Source: Moniliella sp. 'wahieum'
Taxonomy: Eukaryota; Basidiomycota; Moniliellomycetes; Moniliellales; Moniliellaceae
Assembly: GCA_003971905.1 (NCBI GenBank)
Contig: RSEE01000150.1
Coordinates: forward strand, 1-64,000
Direction: 5' to 3'
Length of the DNA stretch: 64,000 bases
Shown piece after piece: positions 18,380 to 38,560 of the stretch (its first letter is position 1; every line of letters starts with the position of its first letter). The notes below the pieces were generated by a model. That model saw only the letters and a list, made by a program, of their open reading frames with translations, made no database searches and had not been told where the DNA came from. Made by a program: the position numbers and the translations under genes.

Positions 18380-19795
18380 GTGCACGCAGGCGGAGGTGGC
18401 GGTAGCGGGGACGCAGATGGATGGCGGTGGCGAAGGCGAAGGCGAAGGCGAAGGCGAACGCAGCGGCGTCCAGCAAATGTGCCGCCCCACCGCCACCGCC
18501 ACGCCCATCGCCACCCGCGACGGATGAGCGCACGGCCGGGGGTGATGCATGATGCGCACGATGCATGATCCCCGGGATTGAATCTTCAATGATTAATGAG
18601 GTAAGATCAGCGATCGGCGACCAGGGTGGGTGATGCGATCAGGGGCGGTCGCAGCAGCGCAGCGCAGCACAGAAGAACCCTTGGAGGTCTAACCCAACAC
18701 AGCCTCAGTCGTCGCATGTCCACCGCTGTTCTTTCGTCTGTCCATCCATCCATCCTCCACACACCATCCACACCATCCGGCCAGTCATCGCACGCAGCAT
18801 GTGCTGCGCACTGCTCCTGCAGCGTGAAACGGTGGGATGTAGGTGACATGTCATATGCCCTACTGGCTCCGATCGTCCGATGGCGCCCAGGGAACACTGG
18901 GGCATCGTCGGGAGATCACATGTCACCGGCTACATCACCTTGGCACGGCTGGGTGTCACATGTCACATGTCCCATCCAGCGCTGCCCAGCACCCGCACGC
19001 ACACGCCAGCCGAGCACAGCCTTGCGCAACTATGGCGTCGGACGGGATGCGTGTGACATGTGTGACATGTGCGTGCGATGGGGACGATCGAGGTCGCAGA
19101 CGAAAATTTTTGACGCGTTCGATGGGACCTGTTGCCTGGTACCTGCTACCGGCTACCTGCTACCATGTTACACCCCGTCCAACCTCCTCGGGCCCCATCC
19201 GCTCTCGCTCTGACAGGGAACACGCTACCTTGGAAGCTTGTGCTTGCTCTTGCTTGGCATGATCCAGCCATCCAACCAGTCAATGAATGGAATCATCGAT
19301 TGCACGACATGGACATGCTCGTCCTTGGCGCACTGGGCGCTTAGCGCGCCCTGCGCAGCCTCTGCCATTTCAACGTTCAATTTCAACTTGCAACTTGCAC
19401 CGCTGGACCACGTCACGTGCCACCTGCCCACGCCTCCAACACACAAGTCCCGTCCTGGCCGACCATCCCATCGTGCCTTCCTCCCATGCCGTCCGGCCAC
19501 CATTGCAGATTGCCACGCGCCATCACAACATTATAACACCTGCCTACGCACCCACGCCCTTGTCAAGTGGCCCAACCCCCCAGCCGCACACTGGCCGCGC
19601 GATCCGACCCAACCACAGACAAGGGGAGAAAGGCGTGGATGGAACCGGTGCCCATGCACCCTGAAAGCGGGATAGTAATACAGCCAATGCTATTCGGGCG
19701 GGAAGGGAGGAGGAAAGGAAAGGTAAGGAAAGGTAAGGTAAGGGGGTAAAGAGGGGGTATCAAAATAGGAAAGTGGAGAGGGAAACGGGATCCGC
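18380..19795. promoter_or_regulatory. Upstream region of the Zn2Cys6 gene with clustered CATGTGAC/GTCACATG sites
   Basis: This spacer lies between two minus-strand genes and should hold the regulator's promoter. Within about 220 bp it carries several copies of the element: GTGACATGTCA near 18843, ATCACATGTCACC near 18915, GTGTCACATGTCACATGTC near 18953, and GTGTGACATGTGTGACATG at 19051-19069. A GATGCATGATGCGC motif lies near 18544. I see no coding frame of note. Confidence 0.5.
18426..18461. repeat. GGCGAA hexamer repeat
   Basis: About five tandem GGCGAA units. If the regulator starts at the upstream ATG (18589), they encode an SPSPSPSP stretch. Otherwise they are in its 5' leader. Confidence 0.7.
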
Positions 19796-22134
19796 TCACT
19801 GCTCGCTCACCGACGAGGATGGCGGTGGGACCGACGAGCTTGCGACCCACACTCTTCCCGCGGTGTGACTGGACGGGGTAGGCATATCCATATTCGTATC
19901 CACGTCCATGCCCAATCCCAATCCGGTCGAGCGGGCACGCAGGACGGCCGACGCCGTTCCAGCGCGGGAGAGGATACGTGCCGAAGCGGAGCGCGGGACG
20001 GACTTGGACCTGCTCGATCCCACCGACTGAGAGCTGACCGAGCGAGTGGACCCCGACCCAACCGATCCGACCGACCCGAGCGACTCGCACCCACCCGCAC
20101 AGGGCTCGACGGAGCAAACAGTATCTCAGCCAACGCCTCCAGTGGCGGAGCAGCAGCCGGCGGGTTCTTCCGAAAGTCCCATTGCTTGCTCGCGGCCGTA
20201 CCGGGGTAAAGCGTTTCAAAGTACAGCGACGGTATCTCGTCTTGCTCTTGCTCTTGTGGTTGTGGTTGTGATTGCGTTTGTGGGTGTGATTGCGCTTGCT
20301 CGTCCTTCGGGTCAAGGAAGAGGTGGCCGTAGAGACGGAGGCTGTGCCCAGCGAGCCAGCCGAAGCAATGGACGAGGGACGAATACGTATGCGGGGGCAG
20401 GTGGGGGTAAGTGTGCCGTCGTGCGGCGCAGCGTCCGCACCAGCGTCAACGGGACGGGTCAACGTCTTGTCCGACGCGACGGATGCGCGATCACGACATG
20501 CGTGGGCACAGAGCGCGCTGGGTGTGAGAGCGCGCGTGGCGCAGGGCATGATGGGAGGTATGTGCCGCATGGGCCGAGAGGGCGGTGAAGTGCAAGTCGG
20601 ATCGGATCGTGTGGGGGTATGGTCCTCCGTTCCGCACGCGCCGCTTCGAGTAACGTGCTGAGCTGTACATGCGCACGAGCTCGCACGTGCGACTCGACGT
20701 ACGGCGCCCAGTTGGGCTCGACCCACTGCACCTTCCGCCCTCGCCCCGTACTGCTCGAACCGGGGTGCGAGTCGTGGCTGGTCATCGACCCGGCTTCGGA
20801 AGATGGCACGCGATCGCTCCCGTCGACCCCGGGACTACTGCCACAGCGTGAACTGTCCCGCGAGCGCTGCAAAATCGAAGTCGAAGCAGCCGAGCTACGC
20901 CGGGCCGAGGCCGATCCCGGTACCGGTAGCGGTACCGGTAGCGGTACGGACGAAGGCGCCAGGACCTCGTCGAGAGGAAGCGTAGATTGGGAAGTATGCG
21001 TTCTCAATGGCGAGGCGGGGGAGGGGGGACGCGCACGGGGAGCAGCCGCGCCACGCATGCGGACCGTCATGGGTGTGGTGGACAGCGCCGTGGTAGGGTC
21101 GGTGGAGGTGATGCACACAAGGTCCGGGACTGGCGTGGCAGTCGCCTCGTCCGCGCCGCGCGACTCGTCGGACGAATCCAGGTCCAATAGGTCCGATCGG
21201 CTCAACGCGGTAAACGTGCCGTCGGCACTAATGTCGCCCTGGGCTAGACGACGGTCGAGCTGCGCCTGTGCCTCGAGCGCCATGTGGGCCAGCTTGCGCG
21301 CCAACGTATCTTGTGGTTCGTCGTACTCGTCCTCGTACTCGTACTGGTCGGGGTCTGCGCGGGGGAGGGTCTCGCTCCTGACGGGGTGCGAGGCATCCTC
21401 CATCTCTTCCAGCCCTTGCTCGGGCCAAGTCTCGAACGAGAGACCCAAGGCGCTCTCTGAGACGGCCATGCGCCGGTTGGTGGGTGCAAGGCCGTATCCG
21501 CGCGGATGGAGATGGTGATGGACGTAGACGCCGTCGCGCGACCGTGCAGAACGAAGCAACTGGTGCAAGTTGATTGACTCGTCCAACGAGCTGGCTGCAC
21601 GCAACCGTTGACGACGAGTGGATTGCGAGTGGCGCACAGTCTCGGAACTGGCAATGCTTTCGCCATCGCTGCTGGGGCGGGCAAGGTGGTCCTTCCCAAA
21701 GGCGGACAGATCGGCATTGTCGAGTGTGGCCAAGGTTTGGTGGATGATGCCGAGCAGTTGCGATAGAGACAGCGCAGTAAGGCGGACGAGTAAAATGGTG
21801 AGGGAGGATAGGATGCGGAGGAGTAACAAGGAGAAAGGCACCACGGCATGGACCAAGGCGTGCAGACTGCCGAGGCCAGTGCACTCGGCAGCCGAGGGGG
21901 GGAGCTCATGCCATCGGATATCGATGGGGGGAACGCAGCGAGGGGTGGCTTGGAGGGGTGTGAATGGGAGGGCGGGGGCGAGCGGACGACGTGCTCGTAC
22001 GAAGGCAGCAGCGCGTCGTCGGGCGGCGGGGCGGCGAATGGGGTGGGCCAGGACGGAGGCCAGAACGCATGGGAGGCATGTTGGGCAGCAACTGGGGGAT
22101 ACGGGGGGAGGGGGGGGGGGGAGGAGGAAGGCAA
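19796..22134 (-). CDS. Unknown protein with Pro-rich N-terminus and one hydrophobic segment
   Basis: I do not recognise this protein. The N-terminus is Pro/Ser-rich (MPSSSPPPLPPYPPVAAQ, with LLPSYEHVV further on). After a probable frameshift comes a long hydrophobic stretch (VVPFSLLLLRILSSLTILLV with AL and LLGII after it) that could be one or two membrane helices. The remaining ~500 residues are hydrophilic, with acidic patches (YEYEDEYDEPQDTLARKL), Ser-rich stretches and one distinctive block, GRGRKVQWVEPNWAPYVES. The end reads SSSVPPPSSSVSEQ. The long open frame from 21856 to 20459 has amino-acid composition unlike the shadow frames, which is why I call a gene. Frame changes near 21860 and 20630 are probable indels. 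It may be a fungal membrane-anchored protein; function unknown. Confidence 0.55.
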
Positions 22135-25014
22135 GGTGGCGCTAAGGACAGGCAGGCATGCCAGGCGGTGGTGGGGGGGAGGCGACGGAGGGCGAGCGGG
22201 CTGGAAGCGGGCAGGAAGCAGGTGCTAAGGGTTGCAGCAGGTGGGTTGCTCACTAAAATAAAAATATACCCAGCGGTTGGGGGCGCGGCGGGCGGAGGCG
22301 ATTTTGGTTGGGGCAGCGCTGGGGCAGGCCGGGGGTGTGATGGGGTTGGGATGGGGACGGCGGATGGGACGATGTGGCCCAATGTCAGTGAAACGACGCA
22401 CAGGCCGTCGGTGGTGGTGGTGGGCGGTGGAGGCGGTGGCGGTGGAGGCCGAGACGATGGCCGGCGAAGTGCAGACGAATGGGGCCGACCGAGGGAACAG
22501 GACGGAGGCAAGGCGGGTATAAGCACTAAGCACTAAACGCAACGCAGAACGTCCTATGCCTGAATCTCAAGCGCTAAGCTGTGCATCCGCCGCCGCACCA
22601 CACTCGCCTACTGGCTCCTGCGCACCTAAACCATCACAGCCGCGTGGCGCCAGTGTCGGATCAGCGTGCGTTGTTCCTGCCCCAACAAAACGATACCCAG
22701 CATGGGCACAGTGGCGCCGTGCTGCGCGGCCCGCGCACATCGGGCTGACACTGCCGCCCATGCGATGCGTCCTATCCCCGCAACCATGCATCATGCATCA
22801 TGCATCAGCGCTGAACGTACTGAACGTAACGTACAGCTTCAAGAAGTGATTGCGTCGGCGCCGCCCTGTTAAGTACTTGGATCTGGATCGTGGACGGCCA
22901 TCCGCGCCCACCGACAAGCCCAGCGGCCTAGAACGGACGATAAGCAAGACGCAATCTGCTCATCACTCGTCATCGCAAAAAGGGAAACACCCCCTCGTGG
23001 GATTAGTTTTGCAGAGTTAGTAGCAAAGAGAGCGCATATATGCGTACTCCGCTCGCTTCGCCCGTATCCATCCTAAGGCCTAAACCCGGCTTGCCAAGTG
23101 GGTTAGTGTCCGCAAACGCCACAGGATCAAAAGAAGCGAGTCTGACGGTGGGTAACGTGCCTGTGTAGCAACGTGCTTGGCCAGATCTTCGTCAGTTTAG
23201 CTTGCTATCTACTCACAGGAGGTTTTCGTCTCCTCTTGTAGCGGTATGTATTTTTGCCTCCCCGTCACCTATATCTCGCTCCCGCGTATACTCGATACTC
23301 CTTCTGCCCCCTCTCTCCGCTGTATCCGTTGTCTGCATCGCGTAGACTGTTTTGTCTCGTTTGCGCTCTGGCATACGTGCGTCGCTACATCCTTTTCACT
23401 GAAATCCCTGCCCAACAACTTGTGCCAATTCCTGAAGGGCCATGGTGCTGCCGTAATCGACACGTGTCGCAAGGGGATCTTCCCTCTCACAGCCACTAGA
23501 TGGCCACTGAGCCAACGGACCACTTTTGGCGTTGTGGGGAAACCATCGATGATGGCCCACACCGTTCCACGGTCCACCTTTCCACCGTAACCCTTCCACC
23601 GTACCCTATACCACGGTGGAGAGTGTAGGGAGAGTAGCTTGGGCAAGCACGCGCGGGCTACTCCTATTGTGCTACGGTAAGCACATATTGCATCCGACCC
23701 ACACCACGAAGACTTTATACCTTGATTCCGGTACAAGAGAGGCCAAGTGTGGTATACACGAGGGAACCGCAACTCCAGGAGAACGTCGGAAGAACACCGA
23801 CAGAAGGAGCTGCTTCGACTGCTGGAACAAGTCCAATGTGGCAAGAGCCAAGGACCAAGGATGTGCTCGAGAGCCATCGTTGTTCTTCCCCTTGTGCGTG
23901 TGAGGGCACGCGGACCATGTCACCAAAGACGAGCAACAACGGTGCCTGAGTACAAGAAGGTATGACTGTGAAGAGTCTCATTGGAGAGGCGGTTCATCGC
24001 TCTCACGCCTCTATCAGCACGCTCATTCGTATCCACCCGCGGTGCACTCGGGCTGGAAGCGAATGGCAGGAGCTAGAAAATCCTGGTCGGCTGACGAGTC
24101 CACTATTAACCTCTTCATTGAGTTGGCACGAAATATAGCAGCAGCACCCCGGACGTGCGAGCCTGGGATATAACGGGCGCAGCGACTCGTTGTCCCTGAC
24201 TTGCCTTTGTCTCACAACAGATATGAATGCAATACCAGGAATAGTGGCCTGGGGAAGCAGTGTAATCGAGAGACTGAGATATAACCTCCCTTTTACAGAG
24301 TCAGTAGAACGCGTGGGTCGAGCACATATGACCACTGGCCCATTGCAAGAGGCTCACCAAGACGGAGCACTAGTCCGAGCGGCTGGCCAGTCCAAAAGCC
24401 GGGCAATTGATTGTCATCGCCACATACGGACTCGTATACGTCTTTCCCCCCCGAGGCTGGATCACCTGCAGTGTTCCTTGTTGATCATGTCGGGGAGATA
24501 CGAACTAGAGATCCAGACGTATATACACGACGACAAGTGATCCTGAGGGGCATGAGCAAACGGGCTATTATACGCATCCCCACGGTCCCTTGTTGGTACA
24601 CTTTGGTTGAAAAAGGGGTCGAACACGGCCAGACGTGTGGACCGGTGACACGTTGAGGTACTAGGATTTGTGCATTTCACTGGGGATCCGTCGGCAACGC
24701 CCTGTACAGAGGGCGTGGGTCTTCGTTGGGGTGGGTGCGCGCCGAAGCGGGCCGTGGCGGATGGTCGCTTCCAGCGCGGGTCGAAGGGGCGGGCGCGGAA
24801 TTGGGGCGGCGGCCGGAAGAAGATTTTGACGGGGACGATGACGTCAGGGCGGCGGGGGCGGGCGAGGCACACTGGCGCGTGGCGGGGCGGGACGGACCAT
24901 TTGAAACGGGCGCGGGCGAAACGTTCTATCGTTCCATCGCTTTCGCTGCCCAGCCGCCGCAGGAGATAAAACGCACCCGCGAGCGGCGTGCTTTTTGCAA
25001 CCCCCACCGCCACC
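22135..25014. other. AT-richer spacer upstream of mtHsp70, possible element debris
   Basis: This 2.9 kb stretch is clearly less GC-rich from about 22900 to 24650 than the flanking genes. A 202-codon open frame on the minus strand (23877-23269) contains WYRVRWKGYG followed later by VVRWLSGHLVAVRGKIPLRH. This vaguely recalls the tail of retroelement integrases. I cannot extend it to a known protein. CATGCATCATGCATCATGC repeats lie at 22785-22805. The last 120 bp are the mtHsp70 promoter, with TTC-type repeats (CGTTCTATCGTTCC) that could be a heat-shock element and a GATAAAAC at about 24964. Confidence 0.4.
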
Positions 25015-27082
25015 ATGCTTGCTCGGACTCTTCGCCAGGCTGCGCTCCCCTCCGCCCGCCTCCTTGCCGCCCGCTCCGTCGCGGCTGCGGCGCCGCTCAA
25101 CGCCGCCCGCCTCGGCGCCGTCCGCTTCAACTCGACCGGCAGCAAGGTCAGCGGCCCTGTGATTGGCATCGACCTGGCAGTGCGTATCTTCCTCTTCTTG
25201 CTTTCTGTTGCCGTGTGCGCGCTGCTCACCACGCCTCTTGTCGTCTCCAGCGACCAACTCGTGCGTCTCCATCATGGAGGGCCAGCAGCCCGCGTGATTG
25301 AGAACGAGGAGGGTGGCCGCACCACCCCCTCGGTCGTCGCGTTCACCAAGAACAACGAGCGCCTGGTGGGTGTGCCTGCCAAGCGCCAGGCCGTCGTCAA
25401 CCCCGAGGCGACTCTGTTTGCCACCAAGCGTTTGATTGGTCGCAAGTTCAAGGACGCCGAGGTGCAGAAGGACATTAAGAACGTCCCCTACAAGATTGTC
25501 GCCCACTCCAACGGCGACGCCTGGCTCGAGGTACGCGGCCAGAACTACTCGCCCCAGCAAATTGGTGCGTTTATTGTTGGTAAGCTGCGGGAGACTGCCG
25601 CTGCCTACCTCGGCAAGCCCGTCAAGCACGCCGTCATTACTGTCCCTGCCTACTTCAATGACTCGCAGCGTCAGGCCACCAAGGACGCTGGTACCATTGC
25701 CGGCCTCGACGTTCTGCGTGTGATTAATGAGCCTACTGCCGCTGCCTCGCCTACGGTCTTGACAAGGACCAGGCGGCTACGATTGCTGTGTTCGACTTGG
25801 GGGGGGTACGTTTGACGTGTCGATTCTCGAGATGCAGAACGGCGTGTTTGAGGTCAAGTCGACCAACGGTGACACCCACCTGGGTGGTGAGGACTTTGAC
25901 ATTGTGCTTGTTGAGCACCTTGTCCAGGAGTTCCAGAAGGAGTCTGGCATTGACCTCTCGGCGACCGCATGGCCATCCAACGTATCCGTGAGGCTGCTGA
26001 GAAGGCCAAGATTGAGCTCTCGTCGGCCCCCTCGACCGAAATCTCGCTCCCTTACATTACTGCCGACGCCAGTGGGCCCAAGCACATTAACCAGAAGCTC
26101 ACTCGCACCCAACTCGAGGTGCTGGTGGGCAAGCTGGTCGAGCGCACGGTGGAGCCTTGCAAGAAGGCCTTGGCCGACGCTGGCGCCAAGCCTTCTGACA
26201 TTGACGCTGTCATCATGGTGGGTGGTATGAGCCGTATGCCCAAGGTGCTCTCCACTGTCAAGGACATTTTCAAGCGTGACCGAGCAAGGCGTCAACCCCG
26301 ACGAGGCTGTTGCCATTGGCGCTTCGATCCAGGGTGGTGTGCTTTCCGGCCAAGTTACCGACATTCTCCTCCTCGATGTGACCCCTCTGTCGCTCGGTAT
26401 CAACACTCTTGGTGGCGTCTTTACCCGTCTGATCAACCGCAACACTACGATCCCGACCAAGAAGTCGCAGACGTTCTCGACTGCCGCCGATGGTCAGACG
26501 GCGGTGGAGATCCAAGTGTACCAAGGTGAGCGTGAGCTGGTCAGGACAACAAGTTGCTCGGCAATTTCAACCTGGTGGGCTTCCTCCCGCGCCTCGTGGT
26601 GTGCCTCAATCGAGGTGACCTTTGACATTGACGCCGACGGCATTCTTTCCGTCAGCGCCAAGGACAAGGCTACTGGCAAGGACGCCAACATTACTGTGGC
26701 TGCCTCGTCGGGTCTGTCGGACTCGGAGATTGAGAACATGGTGCAAGACGCGGAGAAGCACGCTGAGGCTGACAAGGCGCGGAAGGAGTTGATCGAGGAG
26801 GCGAACCGGCGCAAGGGGTGTGCGCCGAGACCTCCAAGGCTCTTGGCGAGTTCGCCGACCAGCTGCCTCAGGAGAGAAGGACAAGCTCAATGAGCTGATC
26901 AAGAAGACGGAGGAGTTGGCTGCCAAGGCACAAAATGGCGACTCGGACATCACCCCCGACCAAGTGCGGGAACAGATCAACGAGACCCGCAGGCTTCGCT
27001 CGGCCTCTTCAAGCAGATCTACGAGAAGCGCAACGCCGAGAGCCAGCAACAGGAGAGCGAGGGCGCCGAGAAGAAGGAGTAA
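25015..27082 (+). CDS. SSC1: Mitochondrial Hsp70 chaperone (Ssc1)
   Basis: Matrix Hsp70 that drives protein import (with Tim44/Pam18) and folding. The presequence ([19 protein letters not shown]...) is Arg/Ala-rich and ends near VRFNST. The nucleotide-binding domain shows [37 protein letters not shown] and [11 protein letters not shown]. The linker is followed by [11 protein letters not shown], the substrate-domain start. The C-terminus ends SEGAEKKE, without the cytosolic EEVD or ER KDEL signals. A 71 bp intron sits at 25180-25250 (GTGCGT...CAG), inside the phosphate-binding loop. Breaks are all repaired by one extra G or C: DL(G)TT at 25177, AA(L)AYG near 25746, FDLGGGTFD at about 25798, S(G)DRMA near 25966, two near 26279-26289, and RDNKLLG near 26543. 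Nothing suggests true decay. Confidence 0.97.
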
Positions 27083-27520
27083 ACGTCAGCTCGTTGTGGC
27101 TTGATCTTCTCTTCATCTTTCTCCTTCTCCCCTCCCCTCCCCCCCCCGTCGCCCCTGTCTGCTCATGGTGTCTCGACAGACATTCAATGGGTGTCTAATC
27201 TCTTGGTGAACCTCACCTTGTACACTAGCAACATCCCCCCTCACCCCACTCCTTGATCGTCTGTCCGACAGGATGTGTCCATTCATTCAACCTATCTGAC
27301 GCTCTACGAGCAAATGCATTCTCTACACCACTCTGCGATTGCACCTGTCTTGCGATAGTTGAACCATGCGCCATTCTCTATAGGGGAAGACGTTGGTGAA
27401 GGGAGGGGGGATATCCCAGAGTGAAATGATGAGAGGGGTCTGGCATGCGCGATGAGACCAAGGCAGCCCAGGCGCAGTCAGGTGCATGCGTATGCATATG
27501 CGTATGCGGATTGGAAGGGC
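27083..27520. other. Convergent spacer, mtHsp70 and agmatinase 3' ends
   Basis: It holds pyrimidine-rich sequence just after the mtHsp70 stop and a short alternating run (GCATATGCGTATGC) near 27490. I see no gene. Confidence 0.5.
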
Positions 27521-29016
27521 TCACGATTGGGTGTCAATCAAGGGTCCGCGCTTGACCATCACGCTGAGCACTTCGAACATCAAGTCGGCCGCGACAAACT
27601 GGGTGAGCATGGCCTGGTTATCGTAAGCCGGGGCGACCTCGACGATATCGGCGCCGACAATGTTGAGGCCTTCGAGGCCGCGCAGGATCCTGCGCATCTC
27701 GCGGCTGGTCCAGCCACCAGTTTCGGGGGTGCCCGTGGCCGGCGCAGCGGACGGGTCGAGGACATCAATGTCGATGGAGAGGTAGACTGGGTTCTGGCCT
27801 ACTTGGGTACGAATGTTGTCAATGATGCCTTGGGTGCCAATGTCGTCAATCTCAAACGCATGGTCCAGGCGGAAGCCGCACTGGCGATCGTTCACATAAT
27901 CGTCCAGTCCGCCCAGCCGGGTACGGATGCCTGCATGCGCCGAGCTCCCGTTCCGAATCAAGCCTTCCTGCGCCGCGTGCCAAAAGAAGGAACCGTGGTT
28001 GATCGTCGCGGCGGCCTTGCCGCCTTGTTGGTGTACGAGTCGGGGCGCCAGGTATCGAGGTGCGAGTCAAAGTGGATGACCGAGACGGGGCCATAGGCCT
28101 TGTTGAGCGAACGGAGGATGGGCAAGACAATCGTATGGTCGCCGCCCAAGGTGAGCAGTTTGGGATGCACGCGGCCCGTCTTGCTGAACAGCGGGCGGGT
28201 GTGCACCGTGCCATCGGGCGTGGTCAGACTGGTAGTGGTGGCCGAGGAAAAGAGAAGCTTGTCGTACCCGCGCTCCATTTGCTCCAGCGCGACCGAATTG
28301 TCCAGCTGGCTGACGGGAATGTCGCCACAATCGAGGATTTTGAGCCCTTGGGTGAACGGGTTCAAGCCCATGGGCACATTGTAGCTTTTGAGCTTGGTCA
28401 TGCGCTTGCTGCCTTCGCGAATGCCGTTGGGGCCAAAGCGGGCGCCAGGGCGGAAACTGGGCAAGACAGCCGGACCGTGTCAGTCAGCCACCACGCACAC
28501 ACGGAAAAGGCGAGAGGAGAGAGGAGAGGATACGCACGAGGTGGCCGTGTCGAAGGGCATGCCGACAAACGCCACATCAAAGTTGCTGCCCGACTGCACT
28601 TCGTAGATCAGCTCTTCGTTGTCGGGCAGGATGTGGGTCCAGGGGGAAAAGCAGGCGCCGTAGGGAGATGGGCAAAGGTGGCCAGGCCGGCCATCAGACT
28701 GTCGCCGGCCGGCGTGGTGAGCGGGACCTCGTCGTGGCGTACTGGGCGGGGTAGGGCGCAGGTTCGCGTGGGCCATGGGTGTGGGCAGAGGTGTAGGCAG
28801 CATCTTGTCCTGCAGCAGCTCGGCCGGGACGAGAGGCATGGGGTTGAGGCCGCCGGGCCAGAGGTCGCGGTACACGCCGTGGACTTGCTCCATGTGCGCG
28901 GCATCGGCGTGGTCGTGGTGGAGGGGGTGTTGGTGGGCCTGGGCCTGGACGGTGGCCTGGAGGCCGACGGCGACGGCCACGATGGCCGCGAGGACGGACG
29001 AGCGGATGCCCGGCAT
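27521..29016 (-). CDS. Agmatinase-like ureohydrolase with signal peptide
   Basis: Mn2+-dependent ureohydrolase of the arginase/agmatinase family, which would convert agmatine (or a related guanidino compound) to putrescine and urea. The protein begins with a clear signal peptide (MPGIRSSVLAAIVAVAVGL...VQAQA), so it is probably secreted or vacuolar, followed by a His-rich stretch (HQHPLHHDHADAAH) that may bind metal. The catalytic domain has the metal-ligand motifs GGDHTIVLP, HFDSHLDTW and SIDIDVLDPS, plus GARFGPNGIREGS near its start. A catalytic-loop segment contains HAGIRTRL. An 81 bp intron lies at 28457-28537 (GTGCGT...CAG). Frame changes near 28730 and 27990 look like indels. The gene is divergent from the 2OG oxygenase. 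Substrate (agmatine versus guanidinobutyrate) is not settled by sequence. Confidence 0.9.
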
Positions 29017-29525
29017 GGAGAAGAGGTGTGGGGGGGGTATATTGTGGTGCGTACATGTTACACACTTATCGATGCGATATCAGTAAAGAGCCTAGCACGG
29101 CGCCGTCGGGTGTCGCAGCGTAGCCGCGCCACGCGACATGCATTTCAAATGGCAGTGTGATCACATGTCACACCCGCCATCTCCGAGCATCCTCGCCTCC
29201 GCTCCTCAGCGCCCCCACGCCCATCGCTTCTGGCGAGAAGGAAGCCATGGGCGCCGTCTTCCCGTGTGCAACCCGCCCCAGCAAGTAGTAGTCACTTCCC
29301 CTCCGTCCCCCCCGACGGCACATGGCCTGTGCAAAAAACCCCGCCCACGCTGCCCCCGCCGCCGAGACATTCCAGCCGCGGCCCCAGAGCAGTTGCACAT
29401 CCGTGCCTGGCCCCGCGCCTCTCGGCCGGCCCTCTCTCTCTCACCCGGCAGCCCCTTTTAACTCCCCCTTCCATCGCTCTCCAGGGACCGTGTCCCTCCA
29501 GCCCAAGCTCTCTCCAAATCGCGCC
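29017..29525. promoter_or_regulatory. Bidirectional promoter between agmatinase and 2OG oxygenase
   Basis: This 509 bp stretch between two divergent start codons carries GTGATCACATGTCACACC at 29157-29174, another copy of the recurrent GTCACATG element, placed about 140 bp from the agmatinase start. The half nearer the oxygenase is C-rich. Confidence 0.5.
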
Positions 29526-30557
29526 ATGCCACTCCAGCTCCCCGTCGTGCACTTGGACGCGCCGCCGGCCCAGCTGGCCGAGCAGATCAAGCGGGCGTGC
29601 GAAAACGAAGGCTTCTTTTACCTCGCCTCCAACCCCTACATCCAGCAGCAGGACATTGACCGCGCGTTTGAGCTCTCCTTGGCCCTGTTTAGCGACCCGT
29701 CGCTCGACGCGGTGGCCGATCGCGAAGCGACGGCCAACCGGGGGACAATGCAGGCTTTGTCCGCCTCGGCGGCGAAGCGCTCGAGCCGGGCAAGAACGAC
29801 ATCAAAGATGCTTTATGCTGAAACGCTTTGCCTCCCGCGCCGATCTGCAGCCTGCCCAACCTCTGCCTCGCGTCTGGAGCGCCCACGACGCACGCGCCGA
29901 GCTCAACAAGTTTTACGAGGCGTGCTATGCCACCTCGCTCCTCGTCCTTCGGGGTTTGCCCAGGCGCTGGGGTTGAAGCCGGAATTTTTCACCCAGTGGC
30001 ACCAGGGGCAACTGGACCGGCTCCGCTTCCTCCATTACCCGCCTACCCAAGTCAGTGCCACGCCCGAGAGCGGCAACTTGATTCGTGCGGGGGCGCACAC
30101 GGACTATGGGTCGGTGACACTGCTGTTCCAAAAAGACGTGGGCGGGCTTCAGGTGGATTTGGAGCACCAGACGATACCGACCCCGATCGGGCCAGCCAGG
30201 CGGACCGGGATGTGTGGACCGACATCCCGCCGCAACCAGGCATGATTGTGTGCAACGTTGGGACGCGATCCAGTTCTGGAGTGCTGGGGTGTACCAAGAG
30301 CACGGTGCACCGCGTCGCGTTGCCCGTCACGCAGCAGCAGGCGCAGTCCAGGTACTCGATTGCCTACTTTTCCCAGCCGGACCAGGACGCTCCGCTGCAG
30401 CCGCTGTCGAGCTGGTCGACGGCGCGCCGGCGTCGGCGGCAGCGCGCGCTTGGCAGAGCGATTCGCCCGCGTTCAATGCCAAGTTTGCCAGCTTGCCCAA
30501 GGACCGGGTCGTGACGGCGGCGAGTACTTGAGTGCACGCCTGGCGGCCACGTACTGA
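29526..30557 (+). CDS. 2-oxoglutarate/Fe(II)-dependent oxygenase, isopenicillin-N-synthase-like
   Basis: Soluble non-haem iron oxygenase of about 340 residues. The N-terminal DIOX_N part starts MPLQLPVVHLDAPPAQLAEQ and has ACENEGFFYL. The double-stranded beta-helix shows the iron ligands HTDYGSVTLLFQ (HxD) and STVHRVALP (distal His), then RYSIAYF with the 2OG-binding Arg. VGDAIQFW-like sequence before the distal His fits the fold. It ends YLSARLAATY. Frame changes near 29745, 29950, 30165 and 30260 are probable single-base errors. The family covers many small-molecule hydroxylations, and the substrate cannot be read from sequence. Sharing a promoter with agmatinase might hint at amine or amino-acid metabolism, but this is weak. 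Confidence 0.88.
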
Positions 30558-30878
30558 ATGCAGGCAGGAGACTGTCCCCGTCTTACGTTGCTCCTAGAGC
30601 ATCTTTGGTTCCGATCTTGCCTGTTAGAAAAAGTAGCGGCCAGGACGCGCGGATGGGAGTTAGGGGCCATGCCAGGCGGGGTTATAAATTAAGGCCTAGA
30701 ATGGCCTGAAATCAATTTGTATCGGCAGCGGGCCAGAAACTAGCCGGTGGCGAGTGGCGCGGGGTGCGTAAACGTGGTGAACAGCCACCACCACCACCAC
30801 CACACCATATCAGCCTGCATTCCGCCGCAGCTTCCTCCCTCCCCAGCTGCATCCTCTGCCCACCTCGCCCCACACACT
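30558..30878. other. Spacer between the 2OG oxygenase and PEX4
   Basis: This 321 bp stretch includes a TTATAAATTAAGG sequence near 30684 that could serve as the PEX4 TATA region, and a (CAC)n run at 30788-30803. I see nothing else. Confidence 0.45.
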
Positions 30879-31458
30879 ATGGCTGTGCCTGCCAAGCGGC
30901 TGCTCAAGGAATGGAAGCAGCTCCAACGGGGCGCACATGGCGCTGCGAGTGCCGGGTCGGACGGCACGATGGCGGACGTGGTGGACCTGCGTCCGTCGGA
31001 TGGCGCGGGGCAGAACCTGCTCGAGTGGAGTGCGCTTCTGGCGGCCCAGCGTCGGGCAACTATGCCGGCGGGCTGTTCGAGGTGGCGATCTCGGTGCCTA
31101 GCACGTACCCGCAAAAGCCGCCCAAGATGCGGTTCGTGACGCGGATCTGGCACCCGAATGTGTCGTGGAAGGTATGTGGATGGAGGGGGGATGTATGGAT
31201 GTATGCTGCGTGTGACCGCAGCGGGACGCGGACGGCGTACAGACAGGCGAGATCTGCCTGGACGTGCTGCAGAGCCAGTGGACGCCCGCGTGGACGCTGC
31301 AGTCGCTGTGCCTGGCGGTGCTGGTGCTGCTGGATGCGCCCGAGCCCGACTCGCCGCTGAATGTGGATGCGGCCAACGTGTTCCGAGCGCAGGACGCCGT
31401 CGCGTACCGCTCGGCGTGCCAGATGTACATGCTGCTCTACGCGGCCGAGAACCAGTAA
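30879..31458 (+). CDS. PEX4: Peroxisomal ubiquitin-conjugating enzyme E2 (Pex4-like)
   Basis: E2 enzyme that, on the peroxisome surface with Pex22, mono-ubiquitinates the import receptor Pex5 so that it can be recycled. The start MAVPAKRLLKEWKQL is the E2 helix 1. The core then has YPQKPPKMRFVTRIWHPNV, and after a 50 bp intron (31172-31221, GTATGT...CAG) GEICLDVLQSQWTPAWTL with the active-site Cys, followed by PDSPLNVDAANVFR. The short spacer between HPNV and GEIC, the SPLNVDAAN block and the small size (about 175 residues) fit Pex4 better than Ubc4/5 or Ubc13. One frame change near 31040 (AALLAA/ASGNYAGG) is a likely indel. The family call is firm; the Pex4 subgroup call is somewhat less so. 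Confidence 0.82.
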
Positions 31459-31671
31459 GGATGGCAAGCGTAGTATGCCCGTGTGATGGCACGGTGATGT
31501 GCCAGGTGATATGCACAGGTGATATGCACAGGTGATAGGCACACACAGCCGGAATCCCGAACGCACACCGCGGCGGAATTAGCCCAGCAGGCCTGAGTCA
31601 CACGCCGACGTTCGTCTTCTTGCGGGCGTCTGCCCACGCCCTGCTTCTCCCACCACCACCACACCACCACG

Positions 31672-33732
31672 ATGACCACGGCGCCCTCGCAGGTCAAGAA
31701 GGATGCCCACCCCTGGGACCGCGCTCTGCTCGAAGGCCTGATCACCAAGCGCTTCTTCTACAACCCCTCCTTTGAGATCTACGGCGGTGCGTCTTTGTTC
31801 CTCCCCTTCTTGCCCTGTTTCCCCCGCCGCTAACCCGCATCTGCTCCAACAGGTGTTGCCGGTCTGTACGACTATGGCCCCACGGGCGCGGCGCTGCAGC
31901 CAACATCATCTCCGAGTGGCGCAAGCACTTTATCCTCGAGGAGGACATGCTCGAGGTCGACCCCACCATCATGACCCTCGACGAGGTGCTCAAGACTTCG
32001 GGCCACGTTGAAAAGTTCTCCGACACATGTGCCGCGACGTCAAGACGGGCGACATTTTCCGTGCGGACCACCTGATTGAGGGTGTGCTCGAGGCGCGCTT
32101 GAAGGGCGATGCCGAAGCGCGTGCGCTCGAGCAGGGCAAGACGATCGACAAGTCGGCCGACGCGCCGGACGCCAAGGACGACAAGAAGACGGCCAAGAAA
32201 AAGAAGATCAAGTCGACGGCGGTCAAGTTGTCGGACGAGGCCAAGGCCGAGATTGAGTACGTGCTGGCGCAGATCGATAACTACACGGGCCCCCAGCTGG
32301 GTGAGCTGATCACCAAGTTTGCCATCCGCGCCCCGAGACGGGCAACGAGTGACGACCGAACCGTCGAGTTCAACCTCATGTTCTCCACTGAGATTGGTCC
32401 GACGGGGACCCAAAAGGGCTACCTCCGCCCCGAGACGGCCCAGGGCCACTTTGTCAACTTTGCTCGCCTCCTCGAGTTCAACAATGGCCGGATCCCCTTT
32501 GCGTCGGCGCACGTTGGCAAGTCGTTCCGAAATGAGATTAGCCCGCGTGCGGTCTGCTGCGGGTGCGCGAGTTTGTCATGGGCGGCGAAATTGAGCACTT
32601 TGTCGATCCCGAAGACAAGAGCCACCCTCGCTTCGCCGACCCGGTGGCGCATTTTGACGCTGCCGTGGCTGCCCAAGGGCACCCAAGAGGCCGGTAAGAC
32701 GGAGATTACCTACGCTACTGTGGGCGATGGGTGGCCAAGGGCATGTGCGACAATGAGACGCTGGGTTACTTTGTTGCGCGCATCTGGCTGTTCCTGGAAA
32801 AGATTGGTAGGACACGAACCGCATCCGTTTCCGCCAGCACATGCACAACGAAATGGCCCATTATGCGTCCGACTGCTGGGACGCCGAGATCAAGACGTCG
32901 TATGGGTGGATCGAGTGTGTGGGCTGTGCAGACCGGAGCGGTACGACCTTACGGTCCACGCACGTCGGACCAGAAGAAACGCGGTGCACCAGCTCTGACC
33001 GAGCCCAAGGTGTACGAAAAGTACATTCCGACCTCAACAAGAAACTGCTCGGCCCCAAGTTCAAAAAGGACGCCAAGGCAGTGGGGAGCAGATTCTTGAA
33101 AGGGACCAAGCCCAGCTCGAACGTTTGGCCCAAGCCCTCCAGGCGGGTCAGGCCACGATCACCGTCGGTGGCCAAGAGCGGGAGTTGAGCTCGGACTGGT
33201 CACTGTCGAGCACAAGACGGTCAAGGAGCACACGCGTACCTATGTGCCGAATGTGATTGAACCGTCGTTTGGCATGGGCCGGATTTTCTACGCGTTGCTC
33301 GAACATGCGTTTTGGTCGCGCGAGGAGGATGCTCAGCGTGGGGTGCTGAGTCTTCCCCCGCTCGTGGCGCCGTTCAAGGCGCTGATCGTGCCCATTTCGT
33401 CCAACAAGGAGTTCCAGCCGTTGGTGCGCGAAGTGACGCGCAAGTTGCGTGCGGCGGGCGTGGCGAGCCGCGTGGACGATAGCAATGCGACCATTGGCCG
33501 GCGCTACTCGCGCAACGATGAGCTCGGCACGCCGTTTGCGTGCACCCTCGACTTTGCGTCGTTGGAGAAGGGTACGATGACCCTCCGCGAGCGCGACACC
33601 ACTTCCCAGCTCATTGGCCCCATCGACGAGGTGATTGCGGTGATCAAGGGCTTGTCGGATGCCACGCTGACCTGGCAGGAGGCCCAGAAGAAATTGCCCA
33701 GCTACAGTGGCGAGCAGGATGTGCAGCAGTAA
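31672..33732 (+). CDS. GRS1: Glycyl-tRNA synthetase (class II)
   Basis: Charges tRNA-Gly in the cytosol and, in fungi, often in mitochondria from the same gene. It begins [20 protein letters not shown], with [20 protein letters not shown] formed across a 66 bp intron (31787-31852, GTGCGT...CAG). Other marks are [35 protein letters not shown] then [12 protein letters not shown], motif 2 (FRNEISPR), [15 protein letters not shown]-like sequence, motif 3 ([18 protein letters not shown]) and the anticodon-binding domain ([15 protein letters not shown]). There is a Lys/Asp-rich insert ([16 protein letters not shown]). The length and lack of a WHEP domain match yeast Grs1. Frame changes near 31900, 32020, 32335, 32550, 32680, 32820, 32960 and 33070-33190 look like indels. 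Start context is good and close to PEX4 (213 bp). Confidence 0.95.
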
Positions 33733-34157
33733 GCCATACATGGCCGCCACCCGTTGGCTCCTGTTCCCTTTTGTCATTCATTGTCTACCTTTCCCATACG
33801 TGTCGTCGAGATGCAAAGTAGAGGTCGGTCGATAGTTGCCCGTGTTATATGAGAGGTACCCAACGCCTATTATATCCGAACAAGAGAACATGAACAGGAT
33901 AGACAGTTGACCCAAGTGATGGATGAATCCTAAACCGGGTGCAGAGAGGCAGTGCGACGGAGGGGGCGCATAAGTACACTTGAACTCACGCAAACAACGA
34001 AACGATGGACAAAAAAGCGAGAAAAATGAGTAGGAAGAGGGAGAAAAACGTAACCACTGGCAACTACAGTAGTCCTGTTACACTCAGCGCTACTCTGAAC
34101 CTCAGCGCTGGAGACACAGGAGAGGGAGTGGCACAGCGGCTACACCCAGATGGGATC
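33733..34157. other. Spacer after GlyRS
   Basis: AT-richer sequence after the GlyRS stop. I see no gene, repeat or clear signal. Confidence 0.4.
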
Positions 34158-34475
34158 CTAGATTTTAGGCCCTTTGCCAACAGTGAACAGCCCAGCCAAC
34201 TCCAGATCACTCCCCGCCTCCGCGTGCTTGCACGCCTCTTCGGCCGAGAGTGCAATGTGGACCTGTTTTTCGTACAGCTCCGCATCGGACTCCGCCCCGC
34301 CGGGCTCGATGAGGTCGAGTACGATAATGTGGGGCCGGGTGAGCCTAAGGTCGTAGACGGAAACGTGTTTGGCGGTAACGGACGCGTTGGTATTATCATG
34401 CTCGGAATGGGCCGGGGGATCAGCAACCCTGTATCCGAATACCGCGATCGCGATGCAGGCCGGGGCGGGCACCAT
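34158..34475 (-). CDS. Possible small or partial protein, unknown
   Basis: A 105-codon open frame with a natural-looking composition (acidic, few Arg/Pro): it reads TRPHIIVLDLIEPGGAESDA, then YEKQVHIALSAEEACKHAEA and ends LFTVGKGPKI. I recognise no family. It sits just outside the tandem duplication and on the same strand as the duplicated genes. It could be the last exon of a gene whose upstream part has been disrupted, or a chance frame. Confidence 0.3.
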   Translation of the reverse strand: MVPAPACIAIAVFGYRVADPPAHSEHDNTNASVTAKHVSVYDLRLTRPHIIVLDLIEPGGAESDAELYEKQVHIALSAEEACKHAEAGSDLELAGLFTVGKGPKI

Positions 34476-35358
34476 TGAGAAGGCAGGCTCAGGTGGAAGG
34501 CTGTGCGGCCGATCAGATGGTGATCTCGATGATCTATGGAATGGCAGTGGTGCTCTCCACAGCTGAATTGCTGCCAGTGGTTGATAGTAGATGCGATCGT
34601 TCCATGCTCTTTGTGAGCGTTTGCATGACGGCGCTTTCGCCGCCCAAATGAAAATCAGAACAACCCGAAAGTGGCGGTGCGGTAGTCATCGAGGTCATCA
34701 GTCGGGTGTTGCTTATCCCCATCTGTCTCTCGCCAGCCCACTCCCCTCCCTTTTTTGCCCACTGCAACCACCATCCATTTTCTACTGTGGGAGAGCCCTC
34801 GTTGGATTTGGACATTGCCACCACCGCCTTTCCCTCTCTACTACCCGCTGAGATGAACCCCCTCTCCCGCCCGCCTCTGTCCTGGCATCCCGGCACCCCA
34901 ATTACAATGCGGGAGGAAAACACTCCGTAACTGGATATTGTTCACATGCCTCAGTCCTCATGAGTTAGAGTCCGCCCGTGGTATATGCATGTTGAGCTAG
35001 GTGGCTTGTGCTTTGGCCAATGCCCTTCTCAGTTCCTCCTCAGGCCTAGGAGTTCTTCTGTTTTCCCTCTCCTGTTTTTCTCCTTGTCCCGCATCTTAGT
35101 CCCTGAGGGCGACTCGCTGTTTGATGGTCCTCTGTAGGCATTGCTGGTTTCCACACCCCACCACCAATAGTGCGATTGCCTCACCCTCGAGGACCATCAT
35201 GCATCAGGACTCCAGGTCTCATCAATGCTTGATGCTTGAATGGTAAATGGAATCGGCCAATCTTCTTCCTCGGAAGACTCACTGCACAGGGGAGGTTAAA
35301 AGATGATTAGTATGAAGTATTAAGCAGGGAATCAGAGTTTGGATGCAGCACCCTCAAC

Positions 35359-35877
35359 TTACTCGATCGAGCCTTCGTGCTGTAATTCAGGAATCCAGAT
35401 CCAACAAGTGCATGTTTGGTTTAGGAGATTCATCAACTCTGGCAGCAGCCCTGTGCGCAGGGGCTGATCTGGGTCGTCGTTATTGTCCTCCAACTCTATC
35501 TGCCAGCTGTAGTCATTGGTGTAGACTTGCAAAAAGGCCCATCCCTCCGTCAGACCCATGCGTTGCTGAGCCTCGGCTTGGAGGTCAATTAGATCTTGGG
35601 CTGGTACTTGGGAGGAAGTGGAATGGACCATCGGATGCCCGTAGTTGTCGATCGCAAACTCCCACTTTTCCGCCGCGGGGCCGAGGCCATTGAGGAGATG
35701 GATCAGTATGTTTCGGTTTGGAACGGGAAAGTCGGCGGCCAGGTCCTGCACACTGTACCATTCCGAAGGCAGCTTCATCTCCATCTCGAGCGGTGTAGAG
35801 ATAGGGGGCGGCAGGAGGGGGACATTGGTGGGAGTGACAACGGTGGTGGTTGGACGGAGAATGTCGAGAGAACTCAT
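35359..35877 (-). CDS. Unknown protein, tandem paralog A
   Basis: Intact, intronless frame of 172 codons with no family I recognise. The start at 35877 (MSSLDILRPTTTVVTPTNV) is chosen because it aligns with the start of paralog B and lies 34 bp downstream of a TATA box; a longer in-frame ATG at 35955 lies upstream of that TATA. Conserved core segments are WYSVQDLAADFPVPNRNILI, LLNGLGPAAEKWEFAIDNYG, QVPAQDLIDLQAEAQQRMGL and TEGWAFLQVYTNDYSWQIEL, followed by an acidic stretch EDNNDDPDQPLRTGLLPELM and a Cys-containing tail. No signal peptide and no membrane segment are visible. Predicted soluble and acidic. The lack of frameshifts contrasts with the housekeeping genes nearby. Retroelement-gag-like or effector-like roles are possible but unsupported. 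Confidence 0.7.
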   Translation of the reverse strand: MSSLDILRPTTTVVTPTNVPLLPPPISTPLEMEMKLPSEWYSVQDLAADFPVPNRNILIHLLNGLGPAAEKWEFAIDNYGHPMVHSTSSQVPAQDLIDLQAEAQQRMGLTEGWAFLQVYTNDYSWQIELEDNNDDPDQPLRTGLLPELMNLLNQTCTCWIWIPELQHEGSIE

Positions 35878-35910
35878 ACTAGGGGATGATTGGTGCATCC
35901 GCAGCCGCTG

Positions 35911-35930
35911 TTTATACGCGGGCACACTTC
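35911..35930 (-). promoter_or_regulatory. Conserved TATA element of paralog A
   Basis: Read on the minus strand the sequence is AAGTGTGCCCGCGTATAAA. The same block, GTGTGCCCGCGTATAAA, occurs at 38152-38168 before paralog B. The spacing from TATA to the chosen ATG is 34 bp here and 35 bp in B. Confidence 0.65.
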
Positions 35931-37568
35931 TAGCGACACTGATGCGCCGATGCATGAGTTACACGCATCCCACACATCTGTCTTCTGACTCTATCGACTC
36001 GCAAAAACATTTGAAGTTGAAGTTGAGGCTTCCTGAGGCGCCTGAGGAGTGTTGCACCGTAGCCGTTGGGAGTAGGTTCTGTTGCCACGTGGTTGGCTTC
36101 ACCGATCGCGGTGCACTTCCCGCCTCATATAGGAGGGCCGGCTGGACTGGCACCCTCCCCCTCCATGCTTGAGGAGAAGGAGGTAGTCTTTGTTTGATTT
36201 GCACCCTGAGAAGCTCTCAGATCTCACTAGTCACTTCTCATATTTCACTCCCACTGAACCCGTAACGTATTGTTACGATTGTCGAGAGAGAGCGTGTATT
36301 ACTAGTTACTACTACAGGTGGCCACCAACTCTATACGTATCCTTGGCGAGAAGTTTTCGCCCCCAACACATCCGCCTTTTCCTTTCCAGACAGCGCTGTG
36401 CTCCTATAGTATGTTGGGTCAGATCTCAGAGCGCTCATCTCGTTCGTTTGTTCCCTTGGTCAACGCGGACGCAGTATCCTCTCTTGTGCACAGCACGTTT
36501 TGGGCCTACATCTGGTCACGGCACATCCTTGGTATCTACACAAAGTGAGGGATGTGCCTTCCCACACAGTGGCTCCAGACGGTCCAACTGCTGGGAAGTT
36601 CAAACTGGCTACGCATCAGACGGGGCGAACAAAGTTGTTCTACAGGGGCAAGAGCCATCTTGAAAAGGCTAGTAGTATCAATGAGCGGGACCGAGGTCAG
36701 GAACAGAGCAAAAAGCGTTGCGGTGGTAAGGAGACTAAGTAAGAGGGGAAGAGGGGGGTGCGCCCGGGCTGGGCGGAGCGGGCGCTGAGTGGCCCCGTGA
36801 GGGTGCGGATACGGAGCCAGCTGAGCAAGCTATCATCCGTATACCGTCCCTTGCACGTACCAACAAAACTTGTCTACCAACCCAAGCGCCCAACGGTTGG
36901 TTCACCTCCGGAAGGTATATAGAGTGTCCGTTCTCATATATATCATGGAGGAGGGCCGGCTGGACTGGTACTCTTCCCCTCCACAGCGTGGGGCTGATGA
37001 TCTCCATGACCCATGGGAATGACAGTGGTGCTCTCAGCTGAATTGTTTGTTATGATTAGGTGTGATCGTTCCATGTTGTCTGTGAGCGTTTGCATGAAGG
37101 CGCTTGCGCCCACCCAAGTGAAAACCAGAGCAAAACCGCAAGTGGCGGGGCGATGATCATCGAGGTCATTGGCCAGTCGGGTGTTGCTCCACCTGGTCTG
37201 TCTCTCAGGCCCCCTCCCGTCCCTCGTTTTGCCCAAAATCACCATCCCTTTTATGCTGCAGGAAAACCCTCGTTGGACTTGGAGATTGCCATCACTACAT
37301 ATACTCTTCGCCTCTCCCTCTCTACTACCCGCCGCTATGAACCCCTTCCCCCGCCCCTCTGCCCCCCGCGGTTCTGGGCACCCCAACTATACAATACGGG
37401 GAAGCACCCTTTAACTATATATGGTTCACAGGCCCCAGTATAGAGTCCGCCCATGGTATATGCATGATGCTTCAAGGGTAAATGGAATCGCAAATGGCAA
37501 CTTGGTCCGGAAGAACCACTGCACTGTCTGGCAGGGGAGAATAAAAGACGAAGATGAGAATCAAGGAA

Positions 37569-38117
37569 TCAGAGTTTGGAAGATGTAACACCCTCATCTT
37601 CTGATTTAATCGAGTCGGGCTCTGAGTCCGGAAGGGAGATCCAACAATCGCATGTTTGGTCCAGGAGATTCATCAACTCTGGCAGCAGCCCTGTGCGCAG
37701 GGGCTGATCTGGGTCGTCGTTATTGTCCTCCAACTCTATCTGCCAGCTGTAGTCATTGGTGTAGACTTGCAAAAAGGCCCATCCCTCCGTCAGACCCATG
37801 CGTTGCTGAGCCTCGGCTTGGAGGTCAATTAGATCTTGGGCTGGTACTTGGGAAGAAATGGGATGGACCATCGGATGCCCGTAGTTGTCGATCGCAAACT
37901 CCCACTTTTCCGCCGCGGGGCCGAGGCCATTGAGAACGTGGACCAGTATGTTTCGGTTTGGAACGGGAAAGTCGGCGGCCAGGTCCTGCACGCTGTACCC
38001 TTCGCAAGGCAGCTTCATCTCCATCTTGAGCGGTGTAGACATAGGGGGTGGTAGGAGGGGGATATACGTGCGAGTGACGAGGCCAGTGGTTGGACGGAGA
38101 GTCTCGAGAGACTGCAT
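37569..38117 (-). CDS. Unknown protein, tandem paralog B
   Basis: Intact, intronless frame of 182 codons, paralogous to 35359-35877. It starts MQSLETLRPTTGLVTRTYIP and has the same core: GYSVQDLAADFPVPNRNILV, LLNGLG-type segment (here VLNGLGPAAEKWEFAIDNYG), AQDLIDLQAEAQQRMGLTEG and LQVYTNDYSWQIELEDNNDD. It differs at the C-terminus, which is longer and acidic (SEPDSIKSEDEGVTSSKL). By eye, about ten base differences separate the two genes over roughly 350 bp of the core, whereas the first 50 codons and the flanks differ much more. Function unknown. Confidence 0.7.
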   Translation of the reverse strand: MQSLETLRPTTGLVTRTYIPLLPPPMSTPLKMEMKLPCEGYSVQDLAADFPVPNRNILVHVLNGLGPAAEKWEFAIDNYGHPMVHPISSQVPAQDLIDLQAEAQQRMGLTEGWAFLQVYTNDYSWQIELEDNNDDPDQPLRTGLLPELMNLLDQTCDCWISLPDSEPDSIKSEDEGVTSSKL

Positions 38118-38151
38118 AGGAGTGGGTAAGCTATTTTTGATGTCGCCGATA

Positions 38152-38170
38152 TTTATACGCGGGCACACTT
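38152..38170 (-). promoter_or_regulatory. Conserved TATA element of paralog B
   Basis: Minus-strand AAGTGTGCCCGCGTATAAA, the counterpart of 35911-35930, placed 35 bp upstream of the chosen ATG. Sequence further upstream (GATGCATGAG, the TCGACTC region) is also partly shared with copy A. Confidence 0.65.
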
Positions 38171-38261
38171 ATATGGATACTGATGCACTGTTGCACTGAT
38201 GCATGAGCCACAAATCACACAGGTCTGACTCGATCGACTCCGACTTTGTAAAAAAAGGTTG

Positions 38262-38306
38262 AAGCTGAACGTTGAACGTGTTGAACGTTGAACGTTGAAC
38301 GTTGAT
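38262..38306. repeat. GAACGTT heptamer repeat
   Basis: Five GAACGTT units with one GTGTT interruption, the complement of the repeat at 5277-5324. It lies upstream of paralog B. Confidence 0.8.
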
Positions 38307-38560
38307 GATCGCGAGACAGAGAGAAGATGACTAAACCCCGAACGTATAGGCATGATGCATGATCGTCGAGCGATCGTGTACCATGTCCGATAGTCGAGAG
38401 AGATGGCCACCGACCCTACATAACCTTCTTGGCGAGATGTTTGCCCCTAACACACTTCCCTTTTCCTTCCCATATCGCGCTGCGCTCCCATCATGTTGGG
38501 TCAGCTCATCTCGTTCGTTTTTTCCCTTTTGATGGCCAGCGCGGCGGGAGCAGCCTCCTC

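Follow-up and report, generated by a model that had tools for sequence, protein, structure and literature searches.

The near-identical core shared by a tandem pair of genes in Moniliella sp. 'wahieum' is very probably the product of interlocus gene conversion. Interlocus (ectopic) gene conversion between tandem paralogues is an established process, and the pattern of sites at this locus points to at least one conversion-like transfer in each of two haplotypes, after the haplotypes had split and confined to the core. The pair lies in a 64,000-nucleotide stretch (hereafter the window), which is part of contig C150 in a genome of 69.5 Mb and 223 contigs. A second contig, C121, which looks like the alternate haplotype, carries three copies of the gene (CA, CB and CC) against two in the window (copy 1, W1, and copy 2, W2), with CB the positional counterpart of W1 and CC that of W2. 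To the left and right of the core, sites group the copies by position, so the duplication would predate the split of the haplotypes; sites within the core group them by haplotype, so the core would have been homogenised after the split, separately in each haplotype. Gene conversion restricted to the core had been proposed in the first-pass annotation, and the grouping of the core by haplotype and of both its sides by position supports that proposal.

Two tandem copies with a shared core

Both genes were taken to be intact on first inspection and both are indeed uninterrupted open reading frames (Table 1). Over the ungapped core (35412-35766 against 37652-38006), 13 of 355 sites differ between W1 and W2; the first-pass annotation had estimated about ten by eye. 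The stretch of about 190 bp that it had described as free of differences corresponds to a longest identical run of 191 bp, and its flanks, said to differ at roughly a quarter of positions with indels, are 75.1% identical over 502 columns with 30 gap openings. Divergence along the copies is anything but uniform: in bins of 60 bp, identity is 93-100% in the six bins from 35410 to 35769 and 39-88% in the remaining bins with aligned bases, and four bins of unit 1 (34990-35229) are without a counterpart in unit 2. Silent divergence between W1 and W2 (Nei-Gojobori dS) is lower in the core (0.074, codons 38-155) than in the N-terminal codons (0.206, codons 1-37); the C-terminal codons give 0.66, a value drawn from only about ten silent sites. 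Open frames called mechanically on the antisense strand overlap the core. Elsewhere in the window, an open frame on the plus strand (33244-33732) contains an HGTP anticodon-binding domain and probably forms the terminal part of a gene for an aminoacyl-tRNA synthetase, which we take to be of the glycyl type.

Table 1. Features of the tandem pair, in window coordinates (C15 relative: the family member on contig C15)
Feature	Position	Strand	Description
Copy 1 (W1)	35359-35877	minus	172-aa open reading frame, unknown family; omega 0.48 against the C15 relative
Copy 2 (W2)	37569-38117	minus	182-aa open reading frame; omega 0.47 against the C15 relative
Putative conversion tract, copy 1	35423-35613		191 bp identical to copy 2
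Putative conversion tract, copy 2	37663-37853		Counterpart of 35423-35613
Rest of core, copy 1	35614-35751		Seven W1-private sites; CB equals CA and CC except at one CB-private site
Diverged left flank, unit 1	34518-34991		75% identity to 36995-37466
Diverged left flank, unit 2	36995-37466		Pairs with 34518-34991
Upstream region, copy 1	35878-35957		TATAA-containing stretch common to copy 2 and, in part, to distant paralogues (alignment)
Segment with two C121 counterparts	34687-34808		C121 84391-84515 and 85922-86049, the edges of the C121 extra unit

A second contig with a third copy

Contig C121 is colinear with the window in reverse orientation from 10757 to 59626, the limits of the region compared, with small breaks and the extra gene copy and with 83-96% identity per matched block; because of this colinearity it looks like the alternate haplotype. 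The allelic background mismatch between the two is 4.41% (1402 of 31757 aligned sites), from a filter on match coordinates that omits the matches at 19457-34199 and 34199-34808 and includes both the block 34687-38268, which holds the core, and one 228-bp match to the CA unit. Genes used as probes of ploidy gave no clean two-copy picture, with three loci for phosphoglycerate kinase and 24 matches for enolase. Two of the phosphoglycerate kinase loci are whole (on C31 and C34); the third, on C1 (1258049-1259226), was matched in three pieces and could represent a pseudogene, an intron-bearing gene or indel errors. Among the 39 of 1571 candidates scored, 5.8S rRNA occurs in at least 14 places on at least 13 contigs (C2, C6, C21, C33, C37, C39, C41, C83, C89, C103, C137, C178 and C195); six of the matches listed begin within 3 kb of a contig start, bit scores run from 148.6 to 120.3, and the matches suggest rDNA of more than one sequence type.

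The extra copy, CA, has a C-terminal end that resembles copy 1 and an N-terminal end that, together with the sequence beyond it, resembles copy 2; judged by its sequence, it is evidently a recombinant of copy-1-like and copy-2-like parts. The two edges of its unit (Table 1) are 87% identical to each other. It adjoins a dispersed repeat of about 400 bp (C121 85441-85843), which we call LTR-like from its size and spread. This repeat has at least 40 other strong matches, 39 at 95-99% identity and one at 92% (40 of 900 candidates scored), and an 89% match on C150 (80902-81288). In both CB and CC the frame is broken near the N-terminus, perhaps through decay or through an error of assembly or sequence.

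The core groups by haplotype, its surroundings by position

At 35341-35422, 23 of the 35 polymorphic columns split W2 and CC from W1, CA and CB, and at 35752-35874 half of them (15 of 30) split W1 and CB from W2, CA and CC; neither of these outer stretches holds a single haplotype-type column. Between them, at 35482-35664, the split is W1 and W2 from CA, CB and CC in 18 of 22 polymorphic columns, the other four being three W1-private columns and one shared by CB and CC. Within the 191-bp tract, from 35482 on, 14 of 15 polymorphic columns are of the haplotype type, the exception setting CB and CC apart from the rest.

The same division appears when all 15 unrooted five-taxon trees are scored for each segment. 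The best tree for the core (35423-35663) joins W1 with W2 and separates them from CA, CB and CC, and the tree by position (W1 with CB, W2 with CC) is 60 lnL worse (AU 1e-7). The left segment favours W2 with CC, puts trees that join W1 and W2 more than 54 lnL behind and leaves the order of W1, CA and CB open; the right segment favours W1 with CB, and trees that join W1 and W2 fall more than 92 lnL behind. Since the borders of the segments used for columns and trees, like the permutation range, were chosen after viewing the five-copy alignment, the tree values are descriptive and not a blind test. An independent recent duplication in each haplotype is ruled out by the trees beside the core.

When the order of sites was permuted 20,000 times (columns 150-720, each multi-column gap counted once), the longest run of agreement was never reached for either W1/W2 or CB/CC. 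Permutation values fell below 0.05 in eight of the ten copy pairs, and so beyond these two key pairs (of the other eight, six at P 0.0017-0.0224 and two at 0.059 and 0.96), as expected because flanks and core are both blocky. Beside the core, positional counterparts stay close in bins of 60 columns: W1 and CB are 93-100% identical on the left and 95-100% on the right up to the start codon, beyond which indels lower the figure to 69-75%, and W2 and CC are 98-100% identical on the left (67% in the first bin) and 86-98% on the right. Three marks of gene conversion were found: a duplication older than the split, clustering within haplotypes in the tract and a tract bounded on both sides.

A proposed course of events

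An old tandem duplication would have given rise to copies 1 and 2 before the haplotypes separated. A break in one copy would then have been repaired with the neighbouring copy as template, so that a short stretch was overwritten, its length reaching about 190 bp at most in the window haplotype and about 300 bp in that of C121. In window coordinates the former tract would lie within 35423-35613, and the tract in CB would extend to about 35751; it appears longer because, at seven sites within 35614-35703, W1 has a private state and CB the state of both CC and CA. That same agreement suggests that the transfer into CB came from a copy-2-type donor. Transfer was probably limited to the core because only the core retains enough identity, and the diverged flanks would block strand exchange. 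The hybrid copy CA was probably made by recombination of the same kind. We infer the nonreciprocal repair step, and a double crossover would leave these sites in an identical pattern.

The gene family and its protein

Further members of the family were found as two allelic-looking pairs, one on C15 and C39 (94-95% identical) and one on C21 and C170 (87-91% in four main blocks, with protein matches that are short or split over frames), and there is a marginal match on C75 (E 0.007) that has no DNA match with any of these four; all 15 of the 15 first-look candidates from the genome search were scored, and the counts are lower bounds. C15/C39 resemble C21/C170 at 80-85% over about 500 bp that take in upstream DNA, and all nine aligned copies have part of the upstream region in common. 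C15 largely retains the DLAADFPVPNRN..L.H.LNGLG stretch found in the window copies, and C39 and C170 retain it with more changes. The frame of C15 is broken near the N-terminus and that of C39 further along, which may reflect decay, sequence error or, in C39, an unrecognised intron.

Omega is 0.47-0.52 for W1, W2 and CC against C15, with dS of 0.70-1.02 (Nei-Gojobori counts, given as such and without a significance test). For these comparisons only the part of CB and CC beyond their frame breaks and the part of C39 ahead of its own were used, with C15 taken as a single open stretch; the CC row runs one residue past the stop, and stop codons were skipped. Omega values of about 0.5 support a protein that is real but under loose constraint. 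The first-pass annotation had found the genes unlike any family, and database searches agree, with no credible match in Pfam, NCBIfam, PDB, or viral or prokaryote contigs, eukaryote genomes lying outside these libraries. Pfam returned nothing for copy 1 and a single hit for copy 2, at 13.2 bits (E 0.13) where the cut-off is 27, and NCBIfam had no match at E<=1 for either copy. Copy 2, the only copy searched against PDB, had no match there at E<=10; its pattern matched 5 times in viral contigs and 59 times in bacterial and archaeal genome contigs, none of them confirmed. Structure prediction for both window copies gave a mean pLDDT of 36 and an unusable model. Our guess is that the family is lineage-restricted.

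Alternatives to gene conversion

Identity at silent sites could also be kept in both copies if the DNA or RNA were itself constrained, through an overlapping antisense gene or a regulatory or structural element, and both the 191 bp without a W1/W2 difference and the antisense open frames over the core would be in keeping with this. Between the haplotypes, however, the same tract has 11-12 substitutions and a 3-bp (codon) indel, a divergence not below the 4.41% background (P 0.23 for at least 11 substitutions, 0.14 for at least 12), and conservation of the tract in the C15 relative is poor (dS about 1, dN about 0.55). With the core diverging between haplotypes about as much as the background does, frozen silent sites are ruled out as the cause, and such constraint is an extremely improbable account of the core. 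Nor is the identity likely to have been introduced by assembly or polishing, with reads of both copies merged over the core. The identical stretch is short, and the broken frames of CB, CC and C15 may point to indel errors in the assembly, but the version of the core tracks the contig and not the similarity of the flanks, seven W1-private sites fall inside the core and CB has private sites too, and both contigs would have to carry the error at one and the same position, yet with differing content. Because each haplotype has its own version of the core, including two in-frame codon indels, and W1 has private variants, the collapse of the two copies that the first-pass annotation had raised as an alternative is very unlikely.

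Homogenisation could instead have come about by unequal crossing over and turnover of copies, with no nonreciprocal transfer. A copy number of two against three speaks for it, as does the hybrid CA with its copy-1-like and copy-2-like ends; against it, W1, W2, CB and CC have kept position-specific sequence to the left and right of the core. Since one flank would be swapped in a single crossover, each event would take a closely spaced pair of them, and we hold this route to be highly improbable beside gene conversion.

Selection and the haplotype-typed core

Ten of the 11 haplotype-type substituted codons are replacements when CB and CC are compared with W1 and W2, and two codon indels come in addition; in the same comparison with CA, replacements make up 9 of 11 and one further change is silent. 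This excess is not significant against neutrality (P=0.27 at omega 1 and 0.052 at omega 0.5, values that use the site numbers of codons 88-152 for tested codons at 71-132), and the replacement ratio in the core does not differ from that of the divergence to C15 (Fisher P=0.72, rounded counts). Positive selection on the core is therefore rejected as an explanation, the excess being within neutral expectation, and diversifying selection is not claimed. The C15 relative sides with C121 in the amino acid of codons 78, 93 and 124 and in length at one of the indels; it sides with the window once, in length at the other; with its agreement so divided, both lineages seem to have changed. Conversion may conceivably spread one amino-acid version of the core through all copies on a chromosome, giving each haplotype, perhaps each nucleus, a single replacement-rich core type and making this a haplotype-typed locus, as might be expected of a protein for recognition or interaction that evolves under diversifying selection, but we consider this very unlikely.

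Known systems and implications

The locus has the features of interlocus conversion as it is known, with a short near-identical tract between old duplicates, diverged flanks and paralogues that are closer in the tract than positional counterparts are. Nothing essential is different; the setting here is two haplotype-like contigs of one assembly and a small unnamed family. In Aspergillus flavus and A. oryzae, paralogues are reported to have undergone ectopic conversion in both lineages, accompanied by split and lost genes (PMC12844118); there the lineages are species, whereas here they are two contigs from a single assembly. Nucleus-specific rDNA subtypes are described from the dikaryotic Puccinia striiformis Pst104E (PMC12129025), and the likeness is that each haplotype of one individual has its own homogenised version of a repeat. 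Unlike that rDNA array, the repeat here is a protein gene in two or three copies of which only the core is homogenised. Since conversion of fungal paralogues (PMC12844118) and haplotype-specific rDNA subtypes (PMC12129025) have already been described, the present locus is a new example of a known process.

Its value lies in its compactness as a natural example: two haplotype-like contigs of a single assembly, differing in copy number, each record a separate conversion over the same segment of an old tandem duplicate. A near-identical core in tandem genes need not imply constraint or recent duplication, and such cores call for caution in dating duplicates or inferring selection from them.
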